DNA of 25,934 nucleotides, from positions 1 to 25,934 of IMG/VR virus record IMGVR_UViG_3300006738_004506; one strand, given 5' to 3'. How positions within the stretch are numbered: the first letter of the stretch is position 1; each line of letters opens with the position of its first letter. Made by a program: the position numbers and the translations under genes. The notes under the pieces are model-generated. The model was not told the origin of the DNA. It worked only from the letters and a program-made list of their open reading frames with translations, and made no database searches. The DNA is from a virus. Positions 511-13,041 of the stretch are shown here, piece after piece.

Positions 511-526
511 ATCTATTTATAATATG
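511..526 (+). promoter_or_regulatory. Post-terminator AT motif ATCTATTTATAATATG (candidate phage promoter)
   Basis: This 16-mer matches the one at 10178-10193 at 15 of 16 bases. Both copies begin a few bases after the T-run of a terminator and end in ATG. Here that ATG is the start of the J-domain gene, and no Shine-Dalgarno is present. It may be a phage-specific promoter giving a leaderless or nearly leaderless transcript. Promoter function is inference. Confidence 0.4.
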
Positions 527-1147
527 TCCCGCATAAAACTCAAAAAGCTAACTCTTCAATATGCCTTTCTAAAATTAGAGAAAGAAGAAGTAGAAGAGGC
601 TTGTTCCGGCCAAGAAAAAGAAATTCAAGAATATATGAGAAAGTATTACCCAGAATACTATGAAGTTTCTCCAGAGGCTGAGGAGAAGCCCAAACAAGAA
701 GACGCTGAAAATAAAGCAGAGAAGACAGACAATAAAGAGGAAGATATACCCGAGGATTCTGAACCAGAAGATATAGAAGAGTTCGAAGAACGAGAGTCAA
801 TTCCAAAAAACAAGGATCTTAGGACTCTTTATCGTAAGATTGTATCAAAAACACATCCAGACAAAATAGGAGATGATAAATATGCTGAAGTATTTAATGC
901 TGCGGCCAGAGCCTATGAAGAAGATAATCTTGCGAAGCTGTTAGAGATAGCCGGCACGCTCAATATAGAATTAGTGGAACTATCCCCAGAATCCGTCGCT
1001 CTCTTAGAAAATAACATAAAAATGTTAGTCAAAGAAGTACATAATATGAAGCAGTCTACAGCCTGGGCTTGGGCAAACGCCGAAACCGAGGAACAAAAAC
1101 AAAAGATTATCAAGTTTTTAATGGATTCAAGGGGAATTAAAAAATGA
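524..1147 (+). CDS. J-domain (DnaJ-like) protein
   Basis: A 207-aa protein with an Asp/Glu/Lys-rich, probably coiled or disordered N-terminal half (about residues 15-95). A J-domain-like segment follows at about 94-140: LRTLYRKIVSKTHPDK carries the HPD tripeptide (111-113) that stimulates DnaK ATPase, followed by a helix ending in AARAYEEDN. There is no Gly/Phe region, zinc finger or DnaJ C-terminal domain, so it is a stand-alone J protein that would recruit host DnaK to a phage-specific client. Short J-domain proteins are known in large marine myoviruses. The ATG lies directly behind the AT motif at 511-526 with no recognisable Shine-Dalgarno. It overlaps the next gene by 4 bp (ATGA), so the two are probably translated together. 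Confidence 0.8.
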   Translation: MSRIKLKKLTLQYAFLKLEKEEVEEACSGQEKEIQEYMRKYYPEYYEVSPEAEEKPKQEDAENKAEKTDNKEEDIPEDSEPEDIEEFEERESIPKNKDLRTLYRKIVSKTHPDKIGDDKYAEVFNAAARAYEEDNLAKLLEIAGTLNIELVELSPESVALLENNIKMLVKEVHNMKQSTAWAWANAETEEQKQKIIKFLMDSRGIKK

Positions 1148-1503
1148 ACGAACAAAGTAAAAGACAAATAGCAGTTGTAGTTAATGACGATGATCTTCGC
1201 CCAATACTGAAGAATATCTTTATTCTTATTGTGAAAAGAAATAGCACTCTCAGAGAAGAAGCCCTTAAAGCGCTCGATAAGGAAATCAACGAAGGCGAAC
1301 CATCAGATATTATAAAGGCTATGACAGGACTTACAGCCGTGGCGGCACAAATGGCTGTAGAGCTTCAGGACGTTGCTGCCCTAGTACACCAAATGAATGA
1401 TCAAGTGGAAGAGGAAGAACTACTCTCCCCCGATGCAGAGGTCATTGAAGATTTGCCTAATCTGCCGGAAAACAGTCTCAGAATTAGTGACTGGAGTGAA
1501 TAG
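1144..1503 (+). CDS. Small acidic protein of unknown function
   Basis: 119 residues with no domain I recognise. Residues 1-90 look helical (LRPILKNIFILIV; LREEALKALDKEI; IIKAMTGLTAVAAQMAVELQDVAALVHQM); the C-terminal 30 residues are acidic and probably disordered. The start overlaps the J-domain stop as ATGA, so it is probably a translational partner and could be the client or adaptor of that J protein (inference). Its last 84 bp are antisense to the 3' end of the VWA lipoprotein gene on the other strand, with no room for a terminator between them. Confidence 0.6.
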   Translation: MNEQSKRQIAVVVNDDDLRPILKNIFILIVKRNSTLREEALKALDKEINEGEPSDIIKAMTGLTAVAAQMAVELQDVAALVHQMNDQVEEEELLSPDAEVIEDLPNLPENSLRISDWSE

Positions 1504-2685
1504 GCGATCGTGCTCGCCACGAACCAACTCTAAAAAAGTATGATGATGTTCAAGTAGGGCAAAGATGAATATTTCAAAGCCTCCATCGAGCGCCAATTGA
1601 TTGACTTCTCTCACGTCTGTGCCAACAATTGTTTGAGATATCTCGTCTGTCATTAGTATTATTACTTTTTGGTTCCCGCTTTCCCAGCCAAAGGGATACA
1701 GCCCGTTCATCGACCATTTTAGAGCGTCGATTGATGGTTCGACACCACCGTCAGGAAGCTGACGGATGGACTCAAGATATGGAAGAAAATCCACAGCGTC
1801 AACGAAGTTTGTGACCATCTCAGAATGACGGGTTAAAGCTGGCTCATATGCCCCAAGGGAATGTCTACCTATGACAGCCAGACCAAATCGAAAGTTGCTT
1901 GTCAAAGGGTCGTCTAAAAGAGGAGCAATGCCCTCTATCATTGATTCTATCTCGTCATCAAACGATCCGGAAATATCGATAATAAAGACAATATCCACTC
2001 CACGATTATCGAAGCCCTCATCAACTTCACCATCGCAGTCGTTGTCTAAATCATCACAACGCTCAGGTACAGGCAAAACCTGTCCATCACAAGGCCCGTC
2101 AAAACCACCCTCTTGGCAATATCTAACTCCTGCCCTGCATTCGCCAACAGCCATTGTGCCAGCCGGCCCATCATAACAAACAATGGCTGTTGTGTTGGCA
2201 ACTCCTTCGTCAATTGTTCCGTTACAGTTATTGTCTAATCCGTCACACACTTCCTCTTGCGGGCCAACGTGCCCATCACAGAAAAGATCTGACTCTTCAC
2301 ATTTCATTACGCCAGGAGTGCAGACGCCCACACCATAATCTGCTCCTTCAACAAACCCGCACAGCATGTGTTGTTCTGGATATGTTTCGTCTACGGCTCC
2401 GTCGCAGTCATTATCTATTCCATCACATTCTTCGCTTGTTGGTGCAACTGCACCATGACACTCTCCCCAACCATTAAAAGTACATCTCCTGGTGCCATAT
2501 GAACATTGTCCCGGAATAGTAGGGAGTTTAGCTGGGTTCATGTTGGCATATATTTCACCAAGATGATTGCACACCTGTTCTTGTCCCGGCGTACACTCTA
2601 GCGCAATTAACTCATCATCATCTAAACATGCAGAGCAGCTTGCGAGCAAGATCGCGGGCACCAAAAATAATAATAAACGTCTCAC
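1420..2685 (-). CDS. VWA-domain lipoprotein with three MopE-type Asp/Cys repeats
   Basis: A 421-aa exported protein. Residues 1-17 form a lipoprotein signal: RR, a hydrophobic stretch, then lipobox LASC with Cys17. Three repeats of the form CDGxDNxCxGxxDE stand at about 87-100, 147-160 and 210-223; these are the metal-binding motifs seen in MopE-like surface proteins. A von Willebrand A domain follows from about 230, with an intact MIDAS start DISGS (237-241) and a later MTDE. Cys content is high, consistent with the periplasm or cell surface. Such architectures are typical of Myxococcota/Bradymonadota-like bacteria and unusual in a phage, so host capture is likely. The start is GTG at 2685, overlapping the stop of the upstream gene as GTGA, with GAGGA just upstream. 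Function unknown; adhesion or surface blocking is possible. Confidence 0.85.
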   Translation of the reverse strand: MRRLLLFLVPAILLASCSACLDDDELIALECTPGQEQVCNHLGEIYANMNPAKLPTIPGQCSYGTRRCTFNGWGECHGAVAPTSEECDGIDNDCDGAVDETYPEQHMLCGFVEGADYGVGVCTPGVMKCEESDLFCDGHVGPQEEVCDGLDNNCNGTIDEGVANTTAIVCYDGPAGTMAVGECRAGVRYCQEGGFDGPCDGQVLPVPERCDDLDNDCDGEVDEGFDNRGVDIVFIIDISGSFDDEIESMIEGIAPLLDDPLTSNFRFGLAVIGRHSLGAYEPALTRHSEMVTNFVDAVDFLPYLESIRQLPDGGVEPSIDALKWSMNGLYPFGWESGNQKVIILMTDEISQTIVGTDVREVNQLALDGGFEIFIFALLEHHHTFLELVRGEHDRLFTPVTNSETVFRQIRQIFNDLCIGGE

Positions 2686-3152
2686 TTCATCGTATCCTCA
2701 GCGCAACTTTCAAAAGTCGAATATAATACCATGGTCATGACGGTACTATTGAATACACGAAATCGAATCTTCTTCAAGGGAAGATCTTCCATATTATACA
2801 TCGCCGTCAAAACAATTGGAGGCGTATTATCTGATTGGGAAGGGGTTTTAAAAGCTAGAAGGAGTGAGTTCCCAGGGCCGTTTTGTAAGATCCCAGAAAT
2901 ATAGCCATCTTTTATTACTTCGGGTATTCCGATTTGAGCGGAAGACTTATCACCTGGGAAGGTGGTTATCCTATCGCTAATATGGATGACCCACTTGCAG
3001 TTATTGTTCTGCCCCGGCATATAAAATGTGGATTTTGCCGCAAATACAGTTTGATGTATATTGTTGGCTTTTGTTTGGTAATAAAGAGCCGCGGCGCAAG
3101 AGATAGCAAGTATCCCCAGAAGTATAACTCTTTTTGTAAGGAATTTAGTCAA
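2682..3152 (-). CDS. Membrane-anchored or secreted protein of unknown function
   Basis: 156 residues. A basic N-terminus (TKFLTKR) is followed by a hydrophobic segment at about 9-25 (VILLGILAISCAAALYY), which is either an uncleaved anchor or a signal peptide. The rest is polar and beta-rich (WVIHISDRITTFPG, LLLAFKTPS, RFRVFNSTVMTMVLYS). The two Cys in that domain (in NNNCKW and FESCAED) could form a disulfide in the periplasm. The start is TTG at 3152, with an excellent AAGGAGAG Shine-Dalgarno 4 bases upstream. It is the middle gene of a three-gene minus-strand unit and is translationally coupled to the VWA lipoprotein gene. I do not recognise a family. Confidence 0.65.
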   Translation of the reverse strand: MTKFLTKRVILLGILAISCAAALYYQTKANNIHQTVFAAKSTFYMPGQNNNCKWVIHISDRITTFPGDKSSAQIGIPEVIKDGYISGILQNGPGNSLLLAFKTPSQSDNTPPIVLTAMYNMEDLPLKKIRFRVFNSTVMTMVLYSTFESCAEDTMK

Positions 3153-3162
3153 GATACTCTCC

Positions 3163-3417
3163 TTACGGGAGAGGGCTTATCTCAACTACCTTTCCCTTGG
3201 GAGATAAAGTAATAAAAGGCATCTTCTTTATCTCTTTAATAAGTATCTCGTTGTTTGAGCTTTTTGTTTTCTTTTCTATCCAGACAAGAATTTGTGTTTT
3301 TTCTTTAATCTGTCCAATGTATGACCACTCACCCTCGACCTTTTGCCAAATTTGAGGAAAGTCAATACTTTGGCTTCCAAATATTAAAAGTCCGAACAAC
3401 ATAATGTTGTTTATCAT
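3163..3417 (-). CDS. Small, probably secreted protein of unknown function
   Basis: From the ATG at 3417 the product is 84 aa. It begins with a short hydrophobic segment (IMLFGLLIFG) that could be a signal sequence, followed by a small polar domain (WQKVEGEWSYIG, ILVWIEKKTKSSNN). The frame also stays open upstream to a GTG at 3483 (106 aa). I prefer the ATG because the GTG lacks a Shine-Dalgarno and would leave only 15 bp for divergent promoters facing the protease gene. It is the first gene of the minus-strand trio, 10 bp before the membrane-anchored protein gene. No family recognised; the signal peptide is weak because it lacks basic residues. Confidence 0.5.
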   Translation of the reverse strand: MINNIMLFGLLIFGSQSIDFPQIWQKVEGEWSYIGQIKEKTQILVWIEKKTKSSNNEILIKEIKKMPFITLSPKGKVVEISPLP

Positions 3418-3498
3418 ATCTTGATCCAATCCTTTCGTGAAATTAATAACCAGATTTACTGTGGATAAATAGTATCCCTTCACTCTAGTTACTACGAT
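3418..3498. promoter_or_regulatory. Divergent intergenic region of the exported-protein cassette
   Basis: These 81 bp separate the minus-strand trio from the plus-strand protease gene and must carry the promoters for both, unless they are read from far away. The minus strand has CTATTTAT at 3464-3471, facing the trio, the same octamer as in the motifs at 511 and 10178. I see no good -35/-10 pair in either direction. Limits depend on the start chosen for the small secreted protein. Confidence 0.35.
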
Positions 3499-4398
3499 AT
3501 GAAGAAAAAAACACCTTTTTACGTCAAGTTTCTTACAATATGGTTACTTTGCCTGACAAGTTGTATGACCGGTTGTGCCACGATTAACTTTAGTCAAGAG
3601 AAAGAAGTAGGGTTGTTGCCGATGCACGCGTTTGTACAAATTCAACAATCTGTGGAGCTTGAAGGTTGTGGGCAAGATCCTGAAACTAAGGAAAGCAAAT
3701 GCCAAAAAGCAATAATGCGTTATGTCTCTTCCGGTGCGTATGTTTTTCACAGTGAGGTATCTGAAGGTTTTTCTTACGCCTTAACGGCCGGTCACTCCTG
3801 CCAATCCAGTATTCCAAAGGTTCAAAACATCAACGGATACAAGGTGACGAATAATGGCTCAGTCTTTACGGCTGTAGGTTTAAATGGTTCACGACATGAC
3901 GCAGAAGTAGTAAGTATTAATTCTCGCTTCGATCTTTGTTTGTTAAGAGTTTCAGATGTACTAGGGAACCCTCCTACTCTCAAAATAGCAAAAAAGGTAC
4001 CTAGGCGAGGAGAGCTTGTTACAAATATGGCTGCACCTCATGGATTATTCTGGCCTGGGACAGTGCTACTGTTTAAAGGAATTTTCTCAGGGTATCACAG
4101 TAGGGGGTATTCTATTTATACAATCCCCACAAAACCCGGATCTAGCGGGTCTCCAATTTTAAATGATAAAAATGAACTTATAGGAGTTATTTTTGCTGGC
4201 TATTCTATCATCGAGAATGTTGGGCTATCTTCACCGCTTATAGCTATCAGAGTATTTCTTAAAAAGTCAATAGTTAAAGGGGAAATGGAACTTTTCGAAA
4301 AAAGTAGAAAGTCTTCTGGTACAGATAGACAAACTACAATAGAAAGAAGCTGGATGCAAAAGATGAAAACAAAACTTAGTGAAGTTTTCGGTCAGTAA
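3499..4398 (+). CDS. Trypsin-like serine protease lipoprotein
   Basis: 299 residues. The N-terminus is a lipoprotein signal: KKK, a hydrophobic stretch, lipobox LTSC (Cys22), with a second possible Cys26 in MTGC. The mature part has the chymotrypsin-fold triad in order: His99 in LTAGHSC, Asp145 in SRFDLCLL, and Ser216 in GSSGSP, followed by the usual ELIGVIFAGY strand. No PDZ domain follows; the C-terminal 50 residues are charged. It would be a periplasmic or surface-anchored peptidase. It lies divergently next to the VWA/MopE lipoprotein unit, giving four exported proteins in a row, which suggests a common job in the host envelope. No clear Shine-Dalgarno precedes the ATG. The fold call is firm; substrate unknown. 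Confidence 0.85.
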   Translation: MKKKTPFYVKFLTIWLLCLTSCMTGCATINFSQEKEVGLLPMHAFVQIQQSVELEGCGQDPETKESKCQKAIMRYVSSGAYVFHSEVSEGFSYALTAGHSCQSSIPKVQNINGYKVTNNGSVFTAVGLNGSRHDAEVVSINSRFDLCLLRVSDVLGNPPTLKIAKKVPRRGELVTNMAAPHGLFWPGTVLLFKGIFSGYHSRGYSIYTIPTKPGSSGSPILNDKNELIGVIFAGYSIIENVGLSSPLIAIRVFLKKSIVKGEMELFEKSRKSSGTDRQTTIERSWMQKMKTKLSEVFGQ

Positions 4399-4413: not shown

Positions 4414-4896
4414 ATGGCTGAACAAAATTTTCAAAATATTCAAAGGGCGCTCGACCAAGCTCCTTCTGTCGTGGGTGCAGGGTCTGCAAGATTTCCCTTA
4501 TCCGTTAGTCTGAGCGGCTCACCAGTACCCGTTGGGACAAGCGAGACTTTAATTCACACCTTCCCGGTTAATACTAATGCCATGGAAGAATTATATGTGT
4601 ATGCCTACAATTATTCCACTTCGGATTACAATTTGTCAATGTCATTTGCTACTGATTCCTCAGATGCTTTCGTAATAAACAATATTATAACGCCGGTATC
4701 GTCTATGACTGGGCTTACTTTATGTTATCCAGGGATCCCCCACAAAAGCACAGACATATCTAGCCCTTTAAAAGTATTTGTCAAAACCAAAGATAACGCT
4801 TCGGCTATAAGTGTCCTCGGTTATGTGATCCGATACTACCCTGTTGATAACGGCGGTAATACCCAGGCAACGACCTACGGATATAGTACAGAATGA
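4414..4896 (+). CDS. Small beta-rich phage virion-like protein
   Basis: 160 residues, no signal peptide, little charge, many Ser/Thr/Val/Tyr. After an N-terminal helix (NFQNIQRALDQA) come strands such as PLSVSLSGSPVPVGTSETLIHTF, ELYVYAYNYS and ISVLGYVIRYYPV, suggesting a beta-sandwich. The 4-bp ATGA overlap with the next gene, itself fibre-like, supports a virion role (fibre, tip or head decoration). No specific family recognised. The leader has no clear Shine-Dalgarno. Confidence 0.6.
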   Translation: MAEQNFQNIQRALDQAPSVVGAGSARFPLSVSLSGSPVPVGTSETLIHTFPVNTNAMEELYVYAYNYSTSDYNLSMSFATDSSDAFVINNIITPVSSMTGLTLCYPGIPHKSTDISSPLKVFVKTKDNASAISVLGYVIRYYPVDNGGNTQATTYGYSTE

Positions 4897-5246
4897 GAGA
4901 TCCTATTCCGCGTAGGCTGCTGGGGCCGATCACAATTGTGATGGGCGGGGATCAAGTACCATCCGGTTCTAGTGGTGGAGGCGGTGGCGACGTAACAATC
5001 ACAAACAATATCAACGGCTATATATTAAGGGCTACTGGTGATGCGAATAGGGTAGAGGGTATTCCACAACTTCAATATGATTCTAGCCGCGCTACCTTGA
5101 CTGCCAGCGCTGGTATATACATTTCCGGTTCAAATGACCCAGGAGATAACTATTTATATCTACATGGAACTGATAGTACCGGCGCAAAAAAGCAGTTTAA
5201 GATTGAGATAAGCGGGTCTATGTTTAAAGTCATATCTCAAGCCTAG
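4893..5246 (+). CDS. Fibre-like virion protein with shared C-terminal module
   Basis: 117 residues. A short N-terminal part (PIPRRLLGPITIVMGGD) leads to a flexible Gly/Ser linker (GSSGGGGGD) and then beta-rich fibre sequence (ILRATGDANRV, LTASAGIYISGS). The last 30 residues (LHGTDSTGAKKQFKIEISGS ...) align with the end of the protein at 1-450 in GTD-G, F-K/R and SG positions, so both may carry the same terminal trimerisation or attachment module. It is coupled to the gene before by ATGA. The small size suggests a short fibre or adaptor. Confidence 0.62.
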   Translation: MRDPIPRRLLGPITIVMGGDQVPSGSSGGGGGDVTITNNINGYILRATGDANRVEGIPQLQYDSSRATLTASAGIYISGSNDPGDNYLYLHGTDSTGAKKQFKIEISGSMFKVISQA

Positions 5247-5495: not shown

Positions 5496-8400
5496 ATGGG
5501 CGGTGTTTATGGTAAGACCGGGCATATGTCTCATTTATATGACAATCCCGATTTAACATTCCAGGAAATGAAAGAAATTCTACAAGCCGCGGCCAACGCA
5601 GACTTAGATGTAGAAGAAAAGCTAGATGGGCAAAATCTATATTTATCTTACTCAATACCAGAGGGGAAAGCCAAAGCTTCTAGGAACCTTACGCATCTTC
5701 GTAACAAGGGTGTTGATGCAATGGGATTAGCTAATAAGTTTGCTGGGCGTGGTACACTGTATGATGCCTTTACAAATTCTTTTGATGCTTTCGAAAAAGC
5801 AGTAGAAACAATGAGCCCAGAAGCTAGAGAGAAGGTTTTTGGGCCAGATACGAACTTTTGGTACAATGCAGAAGTGATGGATCCGGATAATCCAAATATT
5901 ATCAACTATGATTCTAAAACACTCAAAATACACGATAAAGGTCATTATCGATTTGACAGGAAAGCAAAGGACGGAAAAGGGGACAAGATTTTTGAGGATT
6001 TCACAGAGAGGTTAGAAATCTTAGATTCGCATCTTGATAGAATACAAAAAGCCCTAGAGAATCATGACTTTTCACTTATAAGAGACGCGGCTCTTCAATT
6101 AAAAAAGATGTCTGATGATGTTCCCTTGCGTACAGTCATTACTAAAATTAACTCTATTATCGGTAGAGAGGGACTAAATGATAACGATACTGTAGGTGAT
6201 TATTTATACAAACGAGTTCACAGTGGGTTAGATACCGATCTCAATGATTTAAAAAAGGAAGAAATAACAAACTACTTGTTGAAGCTCCCAAGTAATGTGG
6301 GACTTAGGGCAATCAAAAAAGGACTATCTCCAGAAGATACGCAAGACCTAAATGCTATTATAGCATCAAAATCCAATATACTTCAACAAGCGATTCAGCC
6401 AGTTGAAAATGTGATTCATGATTTTACTGTAGAGTTGCTAAAAGGAATGGAAAGCCGGTTTATTCTTGATAACGATAAGGAAACCGAAAGACTTCAAAAT
6501 AACTTAGCAAACGCAGTAAACGCCCTTACGGCAACAGGTTCAGAAGATCCTGCCGCCATAGAGATAATGCAAAGGCACCTAAACAAGATTAAGGACTTTG
6601 TGAATATCTCTACCCCTATTGAGGGAGTTGTTTTTGATTATAACGGGCACACTTACAAATTCACCGGTAATTTCGCCCCTCTTAACCAGATTTTAGGAAT
6701 GGTTGACCCTACAAAATATAGCCGCGGCCCACAAAACCCCGAAACAAATAATGAGTCCTTAATCTTTTCTAAAAATATTATAAAAGAAGAGGAAGAGAAA
6801 ATAGCTTCTGAGCCAAGCAAGGCTGAGCGTTTTGTCTTGTCTTTGCCCAAGTTCACGCCTACTGAGGCCTGGGGTGATCCTCACTCCATGGAAAGACAAC
6901 AGATACAGAGAATATTTGATACTGTTGGTGGCGGAGCGACCATCTCTGAAAAATTACAATTTCTAAACGACACAATCCAGAACCCTCGGGGAGGGATTAG
7001 GTCTCCTAGGCGTATTATTAGTATGTTAATAATTTTAGAATCCTTAAAGGCGGTAATCGAGTCATTTCAGGATGCGCCGGCAGGTTTTGTTTTTGAGGGA
7101 TTTATGGCCGCTTTACTTCGCGGAAAACAAGTAGCATCCAGAACAGAGAAAGGCAATCTTCCTATTCAGGATTTGATAGCATTCTCAGAACTAGGGAATG
7201 GCAGAGATGTGCCGGTCAGTCTTAAATTATTAAAAGGCTTGGCACCTGGCAAAACAGGGAAAATAACTAATATTGAAGGAAGTTATACCAATTTAGTTGA
7301 GGCGATGGACGAATTTGGGCAAATGGTTTATATTGTTGGGCGCAAGGACGGGAAACACATTGTTTTAGAGAAGTTTACGCTCACCCAAGATAACTTCCTG
7401 AGGGCTCTAGTTACGGGCTTCAAAGGCGAACTAGTAAAAGAGGCTAGTTTATTCCAACTTCCAGGGAAAACAAATGAAGAATCTATAGAATTTCTGGAAA
7501 GTATAAAAGACTGGCCAACTAAATATGAATATTTACAAACAACTGCCGGGTACGACCCAAGAGAGAGAGCTAGAAAGTTATCTAAAAAAGAAAAAGAAGA
7601 GAAAGTAACTATTTCGGATGAAGTTCCGGATGGAGAAAATATAGAAGCAGAAACTACAGAAGAACTCCCAGGAAATCGTAAAACAATAAACTACTCTGTT
7701 GAGGAAAACAGAAGATTATGCAGCGAATCCTTGCTCTTAGAATCATCTCAAACACAGTGGTCTATTAGTCCAGCACAGCTACGGAATATCGCCACCTCAG
7801 TTGATTATGAAAAATTGGGTTCTTTGCCTTATGATAGTCGTCACATCACAGGAGTAGCCGAAAAGTATATGAAGTATTTGTCTGACAATTTGTTGAACGT
7901 ATTTGAAGCAACTAAAGAACTGTCGGAAAATATAACACAGTATTTTACCTTTAGACGTCGTAGCAAGGCTATTAGTTCTGGAGAGGAAGCTATTCAGAAT
8001 TCTGACACGATTGGGCAAGAAATGACCCAACAAATATCACAAGACCAAGGACTTGGGGAAACATTGGTCAAAGAAGCGGCCTATACTCCAGGGTTAACTA
8101 ATTCTGGCGACCAAAGCGGGAAAAGAATAGCCCTCTTCCCAGGCAAGTTTAAACCACCTCACCGAGGACATTATGAATTTGCAAAAAAAGTAGCCAAAAG
8201 AAAAGATGTAGATGAGTTGGTCATATTAATTTCACCCTCTTCCAAACCTGAGGTTAATCCTCAGCAATCTCTAAGTATTTGGAATAAGTTTTTAGATTCT
8301 CCTGACGCTCCCGATAATATTCAAGTCGAAATCGCAGACTACCGTAGTCCAATTACTTCAGTCTACGAATATGTAGCTGATCCCGTCAAGGCTCGCTCTG

Positions 8401-8834
8401 GAGATACTATCATGCTTATTAAGAGTAGTAAAGATTTTGGAGACACGCGCTTTGAGGGCGCTCAATCTTATGCTGAAAGAAATAATCCCGGAGTAAGTGT
8501 CGAACTAATAGAAGAAGACCCAGTGAGCCGTCCAGATGGAACCCCTTACAATGGTGAAGATGCTAGAGAAGCTATAGCCATGAATGACGCTGTCCTTTTC
8601 AATACTTTTGTACCAAAAGTTATCGATTCAGATGAAATATGGAATATTTTTCATCCAAACGAATCATATAACGAGCACGTAGACTTTATGATAGACGAGA
8701 TCTCGGCGATGGGATCCGGAGCCGTTTCTGGCGGTGGTTCTGGCTTCGGTCCACCCAATACCTATAACCCCTATACTCCCGGTAAAGTAAAAAAACCTAA
8801 AGTTAAGCGGGCAAAACGACAAAGGCGGAAGTAA
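5496..8834 (+). CDS. Large two-enzyme protein: ligase-like adenylation domain plus HxGH nucleotidyltransferase
   Basis: 1112 residues. Near the N-terminus VEEKLDGQN has the KxDG motif I of RNA/DNA ligases, with Lys42 the expected AMP-accepting residue. A charged helical insert of about 320 residues separates it from IEGVVFDYNGHTYKFTG (375-391), which resembles ligase motif IV (EGVVF) and motif V (Lys388). The middle (about 450-680) has a globular region I do not recognise (FVFEGFMAALLRGKQ). From 877 a cytidylyl/NMN-adenylyltransferase-like domain starts with FPGKFKPPHRGH; its HRGH at 889-892 is the nucleotide-binding signature. A later GEDAREAI resembles the closing motif of that fold. The tail is Gly/Ser then Lys/Arg-rich. 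Large phage proteins combining such domains are usually annotated separately as RNA ligase or NMNAT; joint action in RNA repair or NAD metabolism is inference. Confidence 0.75.
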   Translation: MGGVYGKTGHMSHLYDNPDLTFQEMKEILQAAANADLDVEEKLDGQNLYLSYSIPEGKAKASRNLTHLRNKGVDAMGLANKFAGRGTLYDAFTNSFDAFEKAVETMSPEAREKVFGPDTNFWYNAEVMDPDNPNIINYDSKTLKIHDKGHYRFDRKAKDGKGDKIFEDFTERLEILDSHLDRIQKALENHDFSLIRDAALQLKKMSDDVPLRTVITKINSIIGREGLNDNDTVGDYLYKRVHSGLDTDLNDLKKEEITNYLLKLPSNVGLRAIKKGLSPEDTQDLNAIIASKSNILQQAIQPVENVIHDFTVELLKGMESRFILDNDKETERLQNNLANAVNALTATGSEDPAAIEIMQRHLNKIKDFVNISTPIEGVVFDYNGHTYKFTGNFAPLNQILGMVDPTKYSRGPQNPETNNESLIFSKNIIKEEEEKIASEPSKAERFVLSLPKFTPTEAWGDPHSMERQQIQRIFDTVGGGATISEKLQFLNDTIQNPRGGIRSPRRIISMLIILESLKAVIESFQDAPAGFVFEGFMAALLRGKQVASRTEKGNLPIQDLIAFSELGNGRDVPVSLKLLKGLAPGKTGKITNIEGSYTNLVEAMDEFGQMVYIVGRKDGKHIVLEKFTLTQDNFLRALVTGFKGELVKEASLFQLPGKTNEESIEFLESIKDWPTKYEYLQTTAGYDPRERARKLSKKEKEEKVTISDEVPDGENIEAETTEELPGNRKTINYSVEENRRLCSESLLLESSQTQWSISPAQLRNIATSVDYEKLGSLPYDSRHITGVAEKYMKYLSDNLLNVFEATKELSENITQYFTFRRRSKAISSGEEAIQNSDTIGQEMTQQISQDQGLGETLVKEAAYTPGLTNSGDQSGKRIALFPGKFKPPHRGHYEFAKKVAKRKDVDELVILISPSSKPEVNPQQSLSIWNKFLDSPDAPDNIQVEIADYRSPITSVYEYVADPVKARSGDTIMLIKSSKDFGDTRFEGAQSYAERNNPGVSVELIEEDPVSRPDGTPYNGEDAREAIAMNDAVLFNTFVPKVIDSDEIWNIFHPNESYNEHVDFMIDEISAMGSGAVSGGGSGFGPPNTYNPYTPGKVKKPKVKRAKRQRRK

Positions 8835-9821: not shown

Positions 9822-10145
9822 GGGGGTAACCGGTATCGATTGACGGGGAAGTAGAAAAGGTGCAAGGGTGAGGGAAGCGTGGCTCACTAAAAACGCTTAA
9901 ACTTTTAATCGCAAACGACGATTTTAACATGGAGATGGCAGCTTAAAAACCTGACCTCTCTTGAGGCGACGGCAGCCGATAAACAGAAAGCCGTATTTGA
10001 GAACCTTAAGGCTTTTGATTATCTCAGCCACAATAAGATGATCTAGTCAAGCGGGCTGTCCGACGAAAAAAACAGGCCTAACCTTGTGAATGACCTTTCT
10101 GTGAAACTGGACAAGACGGGAGTTCGATTCTCCCTACCTCCACCA
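9822..10145 (+). ncRNA. ssrA: Transfer-messenger RNA (tmRNA)
   Basis: 324 nt, one-piece. The acceptor stem is GGGGGTA (9822-9828) with TACCTCC (10135-10141), including the G3-U70 wobble recognised by alanyl-tRNA synthetase, then discriminator A and an encoded CCA (10143-10145). The T arm is GGGAG-TTCGATT-CTCCC at 10118-10134. Pseudoknot PK1 is visible: GTGAG (9868-9872) with CTCAC (9883-9887), interlocked with AAGCG (9875-9879) and CGCTT (9894-9898). The resume codon GCA at 9911 opens the tag frame. It rescues ribosomes stalled on broken mRNA, with SmpB supplied by the host. The promoter upstream and terminator downstream make it autonomous. Phage tmRNAs are known but not common. Confidence 0.97.
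9911..9946 (+). other. tmRNA tag reading frame, ANDDFNMEMAA-stop
   Basis: Codons from GCA (9911) to TAA (9944-9946) encode ANDDFNMEMAA, to which the tmRNA alanine is added first. The E. coli tag encodes ANDENYALAA. The start AND and the final AA are kept, but the ClpX/ClpA-binding end reads MAA instead of LAA, and the tag is one residue longer. Confidence 0.93.
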
Positions 10146-10177: not shown

Positions 10178-10193
10178 ATCTATTTATTATATG
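10178..10193 (+). promoter_or_regulatory. Second copy of the post-terminator AT motif (candidate phage promoter)
   Basis: ATCTATTTATTATATG differs by one base from 511-526. It lies 7 bp behind the tmRNA terminator and 20 bp before the PhoH start. The ATG it ends in is out of frame with PhoH and closes after eight codons, so conservation is not explained by coding. If transcription starts near that ATG, PhoH would have a leader of about 23 nt. Confidence 0.45.
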
Positions 10194-12201: not shown

Positions 12202-13041
12202 TTGGCAGGTAAACACATCTCTTATTCTGAGTGGCGGAACTGGCATGTTTGCCCTCACTACCATAAACTCACTTACATTGATAAAGTAACTCAGTTCCAG
12301 GGCAATATTTTTACAGCCTTTGGCAAAGCTCTTCACACTGTTTGTGAGTTTACTTTGACTTCCCCCGAAAAGTACAGGGAAGCCGGCGCTATTGAGGCGC
12401 TAGTTAAAGAGCAGTTCTTGAAAGAATTGAAGGCTCTGCCCGAGAGTGAGCAGCAAAGAGCTAAACGTGATTTCAAACTCAAAGAGTGGCTTGTAAGTGG
12501 AATAGAAATCATTCCTGACCTTTACCGTTGCCTGACCGACAAGTTTGGCAAGCTGGGAGAGGACTGGGAAGTGCTCCGAGCAGAAGAGCAACTCTATGTG
12601 CCCATCACCGAATTCACGGAAGCAGAAAAAAACTTCAAAGGCTTTATCGACCTTGTGGTTTATTCCAAAAAGGATGAAAAGGTTCACCTGATTGATTGGA
12701 AGACCTGCTCGTGGGGATGGAAGCGTGAAAAGAAGAGCGACAAAATCCTCGCTTACCAGCTTGTCTTCTATAAGCATTTTTATGCTCAGAAATATGAAGT
12801 AGACCCAAAAGATGTGGATTGTCACTTCGTTTTGCTGAAGCGGACAGCCAAGGCCGGAAAGAAGGCAGAGTTTGTGCGTGTAACGGCAGCTAAAAAAAGA
12901 ACAACTGACGCCCTTAACGCCTTGACAAAAGCATTGCATAATATCAATAAACAGAACTATATTAAGAACCGGGCAGCTTGTACAAATTGTAAAGACCGCT
13001 TTGGAACTTGTGAGTTTTACCAAACGGAACATTGTCCATAG
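12202..13041 (+). CDS. PD-(D/E)XK nuclease, RecB/Cas4-like with Fe-S cysteines
   Basis: 279 residues from TTG. The order matches RecB/Cas4-type exonucleases: ISYSEWRNWHVCPHYHK with Cys17; FGKALHTVCE with His45; FKGFIDLVV (Asp150); HLIDWKT (Asp165, Lys167); and AYQLVFY (Gln186). Near the end Cys260, Cys263, Cys270 and Cys278 provide three ligands that with Cys17 would hold a 4Fe-4S cluster. It probably degrades or processes DNA ends in phage replication or recombination. There is no CRISPR array or cas1/cas2, so it is not a CRISPR adaptation gene here. The coding sequence looks richer in G+C than its neighbours by eye, which may mean separate acquisition. Confidence 0.85.
   Translation: MAGKHISYSEWRNWHVCPHYHKLTYIDKVTQFQGNIFTAFGKALHTVCEFTLTSPEKYREAGAIEALVKEQFLKELKALPESEQQRAKRDFKLKEWLVSGIEIIPDLYRCLTDKFGKLGEDWEVLRAEEQLYVPITEFTEAEKNFKGFIDLVVYSKKDEKVHLIDWKTCSWGWKREKKSDKILAYQLVFYKHFYAQKYEVDPKDVDCHFVLLKRTAKAGKKAEFVRVTAAKKRTTDALNALTKALHNINKQNYIKNRAACTNCKDRFGTCEFYQTEHCP

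Follow-up and report, generated by a model that had tools for sequence, protein, structure and literature searches.

Why should four genes for exported proteins stand, three of them in reverse orientation, among the virion-type genes of a large phage, and what might their products do together at the envelope of the host? The question is raised by a virus record of 25.9 kilobases (kb), IMGVR_UViG_3300006738_004506 of IMG/VR, which was analysed over its whole length (positions 1 to 25,934) and is referred to here as the window. Within it three genes, A, B and C, run on the minus strand and a fourth, D, diverges from them on the plus strand. A sequence-only reading of the window had given coordinates and strands for these four open reading frames, both of which were confirmed, and had described the set as inserted between plus-strand virion genes; the genes on either side do lie on the plus strand and are likely to be virion genes. 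The four genes are:

1420-2685, minus strand: A, VWA/MopE lipoprotein of 421 amino acids (from Pfam, alignment and Foldseek)
2682-3152, minus strand: B, 156 amino acids, predicted N-terminal membrane anchor and periplasmic beta-barrel-like domain
3163-3417, minus strand: C, probable small secreted protein of 84 amino acids counted from an inner ATG (3163-3483 from a GTG in the open reading frame list)
3499-4398, plus strand: D, trypsin-like (HtrA/S1 type) lipoprotein of 299 amino acids (from Pfam Trypsin_2 and PDB profiles)

The best-supported reading is that these genes form a lineage-core module, probably late and envelope-acting, whose kind the literature searched does not describe, and there is very little doubt that they are a genuine module working as one unit. 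The main support comes from its distribution. A scan of IMG/VR with a profile of A returned 63 loci, and at 62 of these, on 62 distinct contigs (47-100% identical), D, C, B and A are present in identical order and orientation, with hidden Markov model matches to C in all 62. The contigs were found through A, so that A is given and B, C and D are not, and as related samples supplied near-copies of some contigs, fewer than 62 independent lineages are represented. A second search, not conditioned on the module, started from a nuclease gene, d7 (12202-13041), some 8 kb away; D was present in 35 of the 35 clade loci that reach the site and C and B were also seen in 33, the contig ending inside D in the other two. 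Given these two results the co-occurrence of the four genes is far beyond chance. It also supports the proposal of the sequence-only reading that four envelope-targeted proteins make up one system; the prospect which that reading had held out against itself, that the families might never be seen together elsewhere, did not hold up when tested, as within the lineage they always occur together.

The carriers are a lineage of large T4-like marine myoviruses, none of them cultured; a relative of 190,528 base pairs, whose genes serve below as the reference for genomic position, encodes a Gp23-type capsid protein and a contractile sheath. Beyond this lineage, none of the INPHARED phages has A or a close D; by their other genes the nearest isolates, at 24-34% identity, are Microcystis phage Mel-JY01 and Flavobacterium phages belonging to the immuto group. 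Likewise, profiles of A and D found no relative among about 85,000 prokaryote genomes of GTDB at the sensitivity used, these scans resting on short conserved patterns that distant cellular relatives could therefore escape. Plasmid matches to A were confined to its MopE part. Presence at every site reached, together with absence from INPHARED and the prokaryote genomes, argues that the set is a core feature of the lineage and not a casual moron. As the sequence-only reading had supposed, literature searches gave no described phage system of this composition, nor any precedent for a VWA or MopE phage lipoprotein.

What, then, are the components? Protein A, the best conserved of the four, has an N-terminal lipobox, three MopE metal-binding motifs (CDGxDNxCDGxxDE; Pfam, E 2.5e-13) and a C-terminal VWA domain (E 3.3e-7) that resembles an integrin I domain and holds a complete metal-ion-dependent adhesion site (MIDAS). 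The DxSxS motif, the downstream Asp and the VWA fold of such a site are all present, the D-x-S-x-S and MTDE residues being invariant in every covering sequence from the 62 contigs, and Foldseek matched A to integrin headpieces at E 2.5e-10. From this model A should bind a ligand through a divalent metal. Beyond the VWA domain confidence in the structure model is low, and with it confidence in the modelled arrangement of the MopE motifs. A strict lipobox pattern was found in 56 of 63 sequence rows for A and in 57 of 63 for D, the remainder being truncated or mis-started open reading frames or pattern misses such as LLGTASC; the Pfam lipobox model scored 15.9 bits on A, below its 20-bit cut-off. 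Both proteins are predicted to be lipoproteins.

Protein D belongs to Trypsin_2 (Pfam, E 1e-13) and its PDB profile matches are to HtrA, DegP and Spl. The His-Asp-Ser triad of the trypsin fold (H99/D145/S216) is invariant in every covering sequence, and Pfam finds no PDZ domain, as occurs in HtrA and DegS, in its 299 amino acids, so that D looks like an active S1/HtrA-type protease without PDZ, probably lipid-anchored and with an intact triad. B and C match no Pfam family. The AlphaFold model of B (predicted local distance difference test score 88.6) has an N-terminal helix over residues 2-32 followed by a beta barrel, in which there are two invariant Cys residues; the model points to an inner-membrane-anchored periplasmic protein. 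An assignment of B as a lipoprotein was rejected on account of the modelled helix and an unconserved Cys19, and Foldseek searches of PDB and BFVD for its fold brought no match at E <= 0.001, the only hits being weak, lipocalin/avidin-like ones. The start of C is most likely the inner ATG, since this is shared by the relatives and gives a signal-peptide-like N-terminus, and C looks like a short secreted protein.

When might such proteins be made? In the 190 kb relative the motif CTANTTA precedes capsid-region, sheath and other virion genes, and TTGAC...TATAAT-like promoters occur at several other genes, including a MoxR-like gene. In the window the gap between C and D holds a copy of the late-promoter-like motif for each direction of transcription:

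3465-3472, minus strand: CTATTTAT, about 55 nucleotides before the ATG of C, at the head of C-B-A
3485-3492, plus strand: CTAGTTAC, 14 nucleotides before the ATG of D

Further copies lie at 513 (plus strand), before a J-domain-like gene, and at 10180 (plus strand), before the probable start of phoH. Variants of the motif are found in the C-D gaps of relatives, with [CA]TA[GC]TTACT before D in most close ones. No early-type TTGACA-TATAAT promoter stands above chance at the module, and no terminator-like site was found inside it, the only terminator (479-504) lying upstream of the region. As both units start at a motif that is found before virion genes, this suggests that both are expressed late.

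The genes are tightly arranged, B and A overlapping by 4 nucleotides from stop to start, and C-B-A is the sole credible minus-strand operon among the 231 open reading frames of the 190 kb relative. Even so, the four genes do not share a single history. When pairwise identities were compared across 29 phages that carry the module at the same position as the window (address I below), those of B, C and D correlated with one another at r 0.91-0.93 (Mantel p 0.0002), whereas those of A correlated with B, C or D at only 0.14-0.24. In the pair L016/L018, for instance, A is 95% identical, B 34% and D 42%. The trees conflict in the same way: for A, L016, L017 and L018 form one clade (100/100), whereas for D, L018 groups with L064-L067/L084 (100/100), L016 with L068 (100/99) and L017 near L003/L046/L050 (100/99). 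The recombination break falls at the B/A junction despite the touching genes. The correlations and the tree conflict together argue that B-C-D is one co-inherited block and that A is the exchangeable part.

A look further afield suggests which associations are old. In a more distant clade (44-49% in d7) most loci hold a D homologue as a single minus-strand gene adjoining phoH, and 7 of 10 contigs have an unlinked lipoprotein of about 715-750 amino acids, rich in MopE motifs and VWA-like towards its C-terminus; no B homologue was found there. Small exported neighbours of D in L154, L169 and L176 were considered as candidates for C and rejected, as they are not conserved at the other loci of this clade. 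In the still more distant G005, A occurs alone, beside a VanY-type peptidase with a signal-like N-terminus. Since these phages hold A and D unlinked or alone, both genes are old in the group, and the linkage of all four is peculiar to one lineage.

Where the module sits is informative about its use. Among the 62 contigs it is found, always as one unit, at four addresses, and at all of them the neighbouring genes are co-directional with D and opposed to C-B-A. Address I, the type of the window, lies between a J-domain-like gene and g161 and accounts for 34 contigs; address II, between a primase-helicase-like gene (g45) and g222-M50, for 13; address III, beside an SLT transglycosylase, for 12; and a fourth context for 3. 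The neighbours concerned are:

524-1147, plus strand (window): J-domain-like protein, g155 homologue, on the A side at address I
4414-4896, plus strand (window): conserved protein of unknown function, g161 homologue, on the D side at address I
5879-7206 of L096 (G001) and 7015-8276 of L010, also in L188 and L189: M50 (RseP-like) intramembrane protease, usually overlapping g222

At address II, g222 follows D at -4 to +17 nucleotides and is itself followed by the M50 protease (E 3e-57), which 6 of the 11 contigs encode, among them every one of the five tested that exceed 140 kb. In L010 the genes D, g222 and M50 make up one tight operon with overlaps of 4 and 16 nucleotides. The g222 product has an N-terminal tail of about 45 amino acids, one transmembrane segment and a coiled coil, and gives weak Rz-like spanin matches (E 7e-5 to 0.01). 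At address III, D overlaps by 4 nucleotides the gene for a protein of 103 amino acids with two transmembrane segments, after which comes the SLT transglycosylase, itself a lipoprotein in L077 and L078. In address-III phages (L069, L072-L082) a second trypsin-like lipoprotein-type gene is also seen directly behind A (Trypsin_2, E 1.9e-19 in L072).

What does the module do? Because of the neighbours at addresses II and III, the reading favoured here, tentatively and at less than even odds, is that the module remodels the envelope of the host late in infection and in this way assists lysis or the release of progeny. In this scheme the module would be transcribed late, alongside the virion genes, and its products would pass to the periplasm and the outer membrane. 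There A might bind a target through its metal site and D cleave envelope proteins, with B and C, which co-vary with D, holding, feeding or restraining the protease across the periplasm, so that the outer cell layers would be remodelled near the end of infection, leading to lysis or a clean release of progeny. The likeness to the lysis cassettes of holin, endolysin and Rz/Rz1 spanins is that both mix inner-membrane-anchored and lipid-anchored proteins, and that D lies tightly against Rz-like or transglycosylase genes at addresses II and III. The difference is that A to D have no spanin-type sequence and carry VWA and protease domains; as a spanin pair they were rejected, there being no PHROGs spanin match to any of them and only a weak one to the neighbour g222. 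Three points weigh against late remodelling: (i) the commonest address (34 of 62 contigs, the type of the window) has no lysis gene next to it, the SLT gene being about 38 kb away in G001; (ii) the weak spanin match of g222 may reflect the mere combination of a transmembrane segment and a coiled coil; and (iii) CTANTTA, which occurs 14 times against 0.96 expected across 5.0 kb lying upstream of genes in the 190 kb relative, was defined on that very genome, which makes the count descriptive.

Could the module instead exclude other phages, one of the roles that the sequence-only reading had suggested? In superinfection exclusion or surface remodelling, A would mask or capture a receptor and D degrade it, so that related phages could not adsorb to the infected cell or its debris. 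Lipoproteins of the T5 Llp and T1 Cor type, encoded near tail or receptor-binding genes, do go to the host envelope and act in this manner (PMC9586334), and the swapping of A between B-C-D backgrounds, backed by a well-supported tree conflict, is what would be expected of a specificity factor; the NeuB and other sugar-pathway genes of the window may also alter surfaces. However, Llp acts as a single, small, early-expressed lipoprotein (PMC9586334), whereas here there are four proteins with late-type motifs and VWA or enzyme domains, the lipoproteins A and D being 421 and 299 amino acids long, and no sequence relation to Llp or Cor was detected. That A is the most conserved member fits poorly with a receptor blocker in an arms race, and the lysis-type neighbours at two addresses also speak for late remodelling, which leaves exclusion the less well supported of the two and rather unlikely, if a serious contender.

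A bolder proposal, which we regard as unlikely, is that the module is an envelope sensing and proteolysis machine, in which an exchangeable, integrin-like recognition lipoprotein A is coupled across the periplasm, through B and C, to D, which in some phages would lead on to a bitopic substrate and M50, and a surface event (another phage, a neighbouring cell, envelope damage) is turned into a programmed late response. Such a machine would be without a known counterpart. Another candidate is regulated intramembrane proteolysis, with D as site-1 protease, g222 as substrate and the phage M50 as site-2 protease, a counterpart of the DegS-RseA-RseP sigma-E pathway that would report an envelope event sensed by A, B or C. 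The tightly packed operon of an anchored trypsin-like protease, a bitopic protein with a tail and coiled coil, and a strongly matching M50 protease at address II is what speaks for it, together with the HtrA-like character of D. Yet D has a lipid anchor in place of a transmembrane segment and PDZ domain, no regulator fold or anti-sigma domain can be recognised in the tail of g222, and the topology of g222 would also fit a spanin; moreover, D is not beside g222-M50 at addresses I and III, and at III no g222 adjoins M50. On balance such a pathway seems improbable.

Another possibility is that the module serves, late in infection, to control protein quality in the periplasm or to digest envelope proteins of the host, A being a calcium-dependent scaffold and neither lysis nor exclusion a dedicated function. 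This would accommodate the HtrA-like D, the calcium-type loops of the MopE motifs and the universality of the module in the lineage; it leaves the MIDAS binder, the fixed four-gene architecture and the exchange of A unexplained, and is distinctly improbable. Finally, the sequence-only reading had seen in the genes a candidate moron-type system; a moron, taken as a recently acquired, host-derived set serving host or phage apart from the lytic programme, would explain the opposite orientation with own promoters between conserved phage genes and the slightly higher G+C content of A (0.46 vs 0.39-0.40), but is largely refuted and very improbable, as the set is neither sporadic nor recent (35 of 35 loci; A 47-72% identical), has, at the sensitivity used, no cellular homologue in the 85,000 genomes, lacks an own terminator and starts at the phage-type motifs of virion genes.

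Three further comparisons concern the protein families. The VWA and trypsin-like pairing has a parallel in complement factor B, where a MIDAS VWA and a trypsin-like protease are two domains of one eukaryotic protein; the organism is unrelated and the likeness is a lead only. The repeated CDGxDNDCDGxxDE motifs are shared with MopE/VWA surface lipoproteins, for example a MopE-related protein of Sandaracinus, to which the match is partial and limited to the MopE region (39% of the query, 36% identity), and no cellular neighbours of the B, C or D kind are known. The MoxR-VWA pairs known from jumbo phages likewise place a VWA domain in large myoviruses, but these are cytoplasmic and have been proposed as chaperones in virion assembly (PMC7824862), whereas A is exported as a lipoprotein and has no ATPase for a partner; a MoxR-like ATPase with a probable VWA-type partner was seen by eye elsewhere in G001 and G005. 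A known anti-phage defence or counter-defence system was also considered and rejected, PADLOC giving weak generic protease matches for D (E about 1e-4) and none for A, B or C.

The module thus represents a lineage-fixed, multi-protein envelope programme in large ocean phages that none of the cultured phages in the searched collection carries, and for that reason laboratory phage biology has no model for it. As the genes stay linked at four addresses while A is swapped, the activity of D, the ligand of A and any influence on adsorption or lysis lend themselves to clear tests. Should the module serve exclusion or egress, the very few phage systems known to act on the envelope would gain a type that combines a protease with a binder.

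Who the host might be is a related question. A route to the host through cellular carriers of A or D was abandoned, as the pattern scan found no cellular genome with either. A transfer-messenger RNA (tmRNA) lies at 9822-10145 on the plus strand, just before phoH (Rfam 89.7 bits), with an ARAGORN tag of ANDDFNMEMAA; the tags of relatives are ANDDFEMEMAA, ANDDFQLAQAA and ANDDFLLAQAA, and those of the distant clade ANDNVEVDYALAA/ANDNVSFDYALAA. Such tags could help to name the host. Together with the MopE motifs they may hint at hosts like Myxococcota or Bdellovibrionota.

Several other features of the window and its relatives may be recorded. Fibre-like C-terminal repeats are visible in the flanks of the module at 1-450 and 4893-5246, for which PHROGs gave no convincing tail call. 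A small gene on the plus strand, u3 (1144-1503), has an 84-nucleotide tail-to-tail overlap with the 3' end of A and occurs only in the window and its near-identical contig. Between 18838 and 22680, on the plus strand, two NeuB-family synthases, a CTP_transf_3 cytidylyltransferase and two short-chain dehydrogenases lie among glycosyltransferase-like genes and appear to encode a phage-borne pathway for a nonulosonic-acid-type sugar. In G001 a protein of 133 amino acids (L091 11678-12079) has a pilin/PilX-like hydrophobic N-terminus (MNRRGMTLILVLMMSAF...) and no Pfam match. The gene at 5496-8834, on the plus strand, encodes a protein of 1112 amino acids whose middle part (about 455-872) is missing in many relatives, and a stretch similar to this middle part seems to be a separate gene in G005 (L086 15628-17064).

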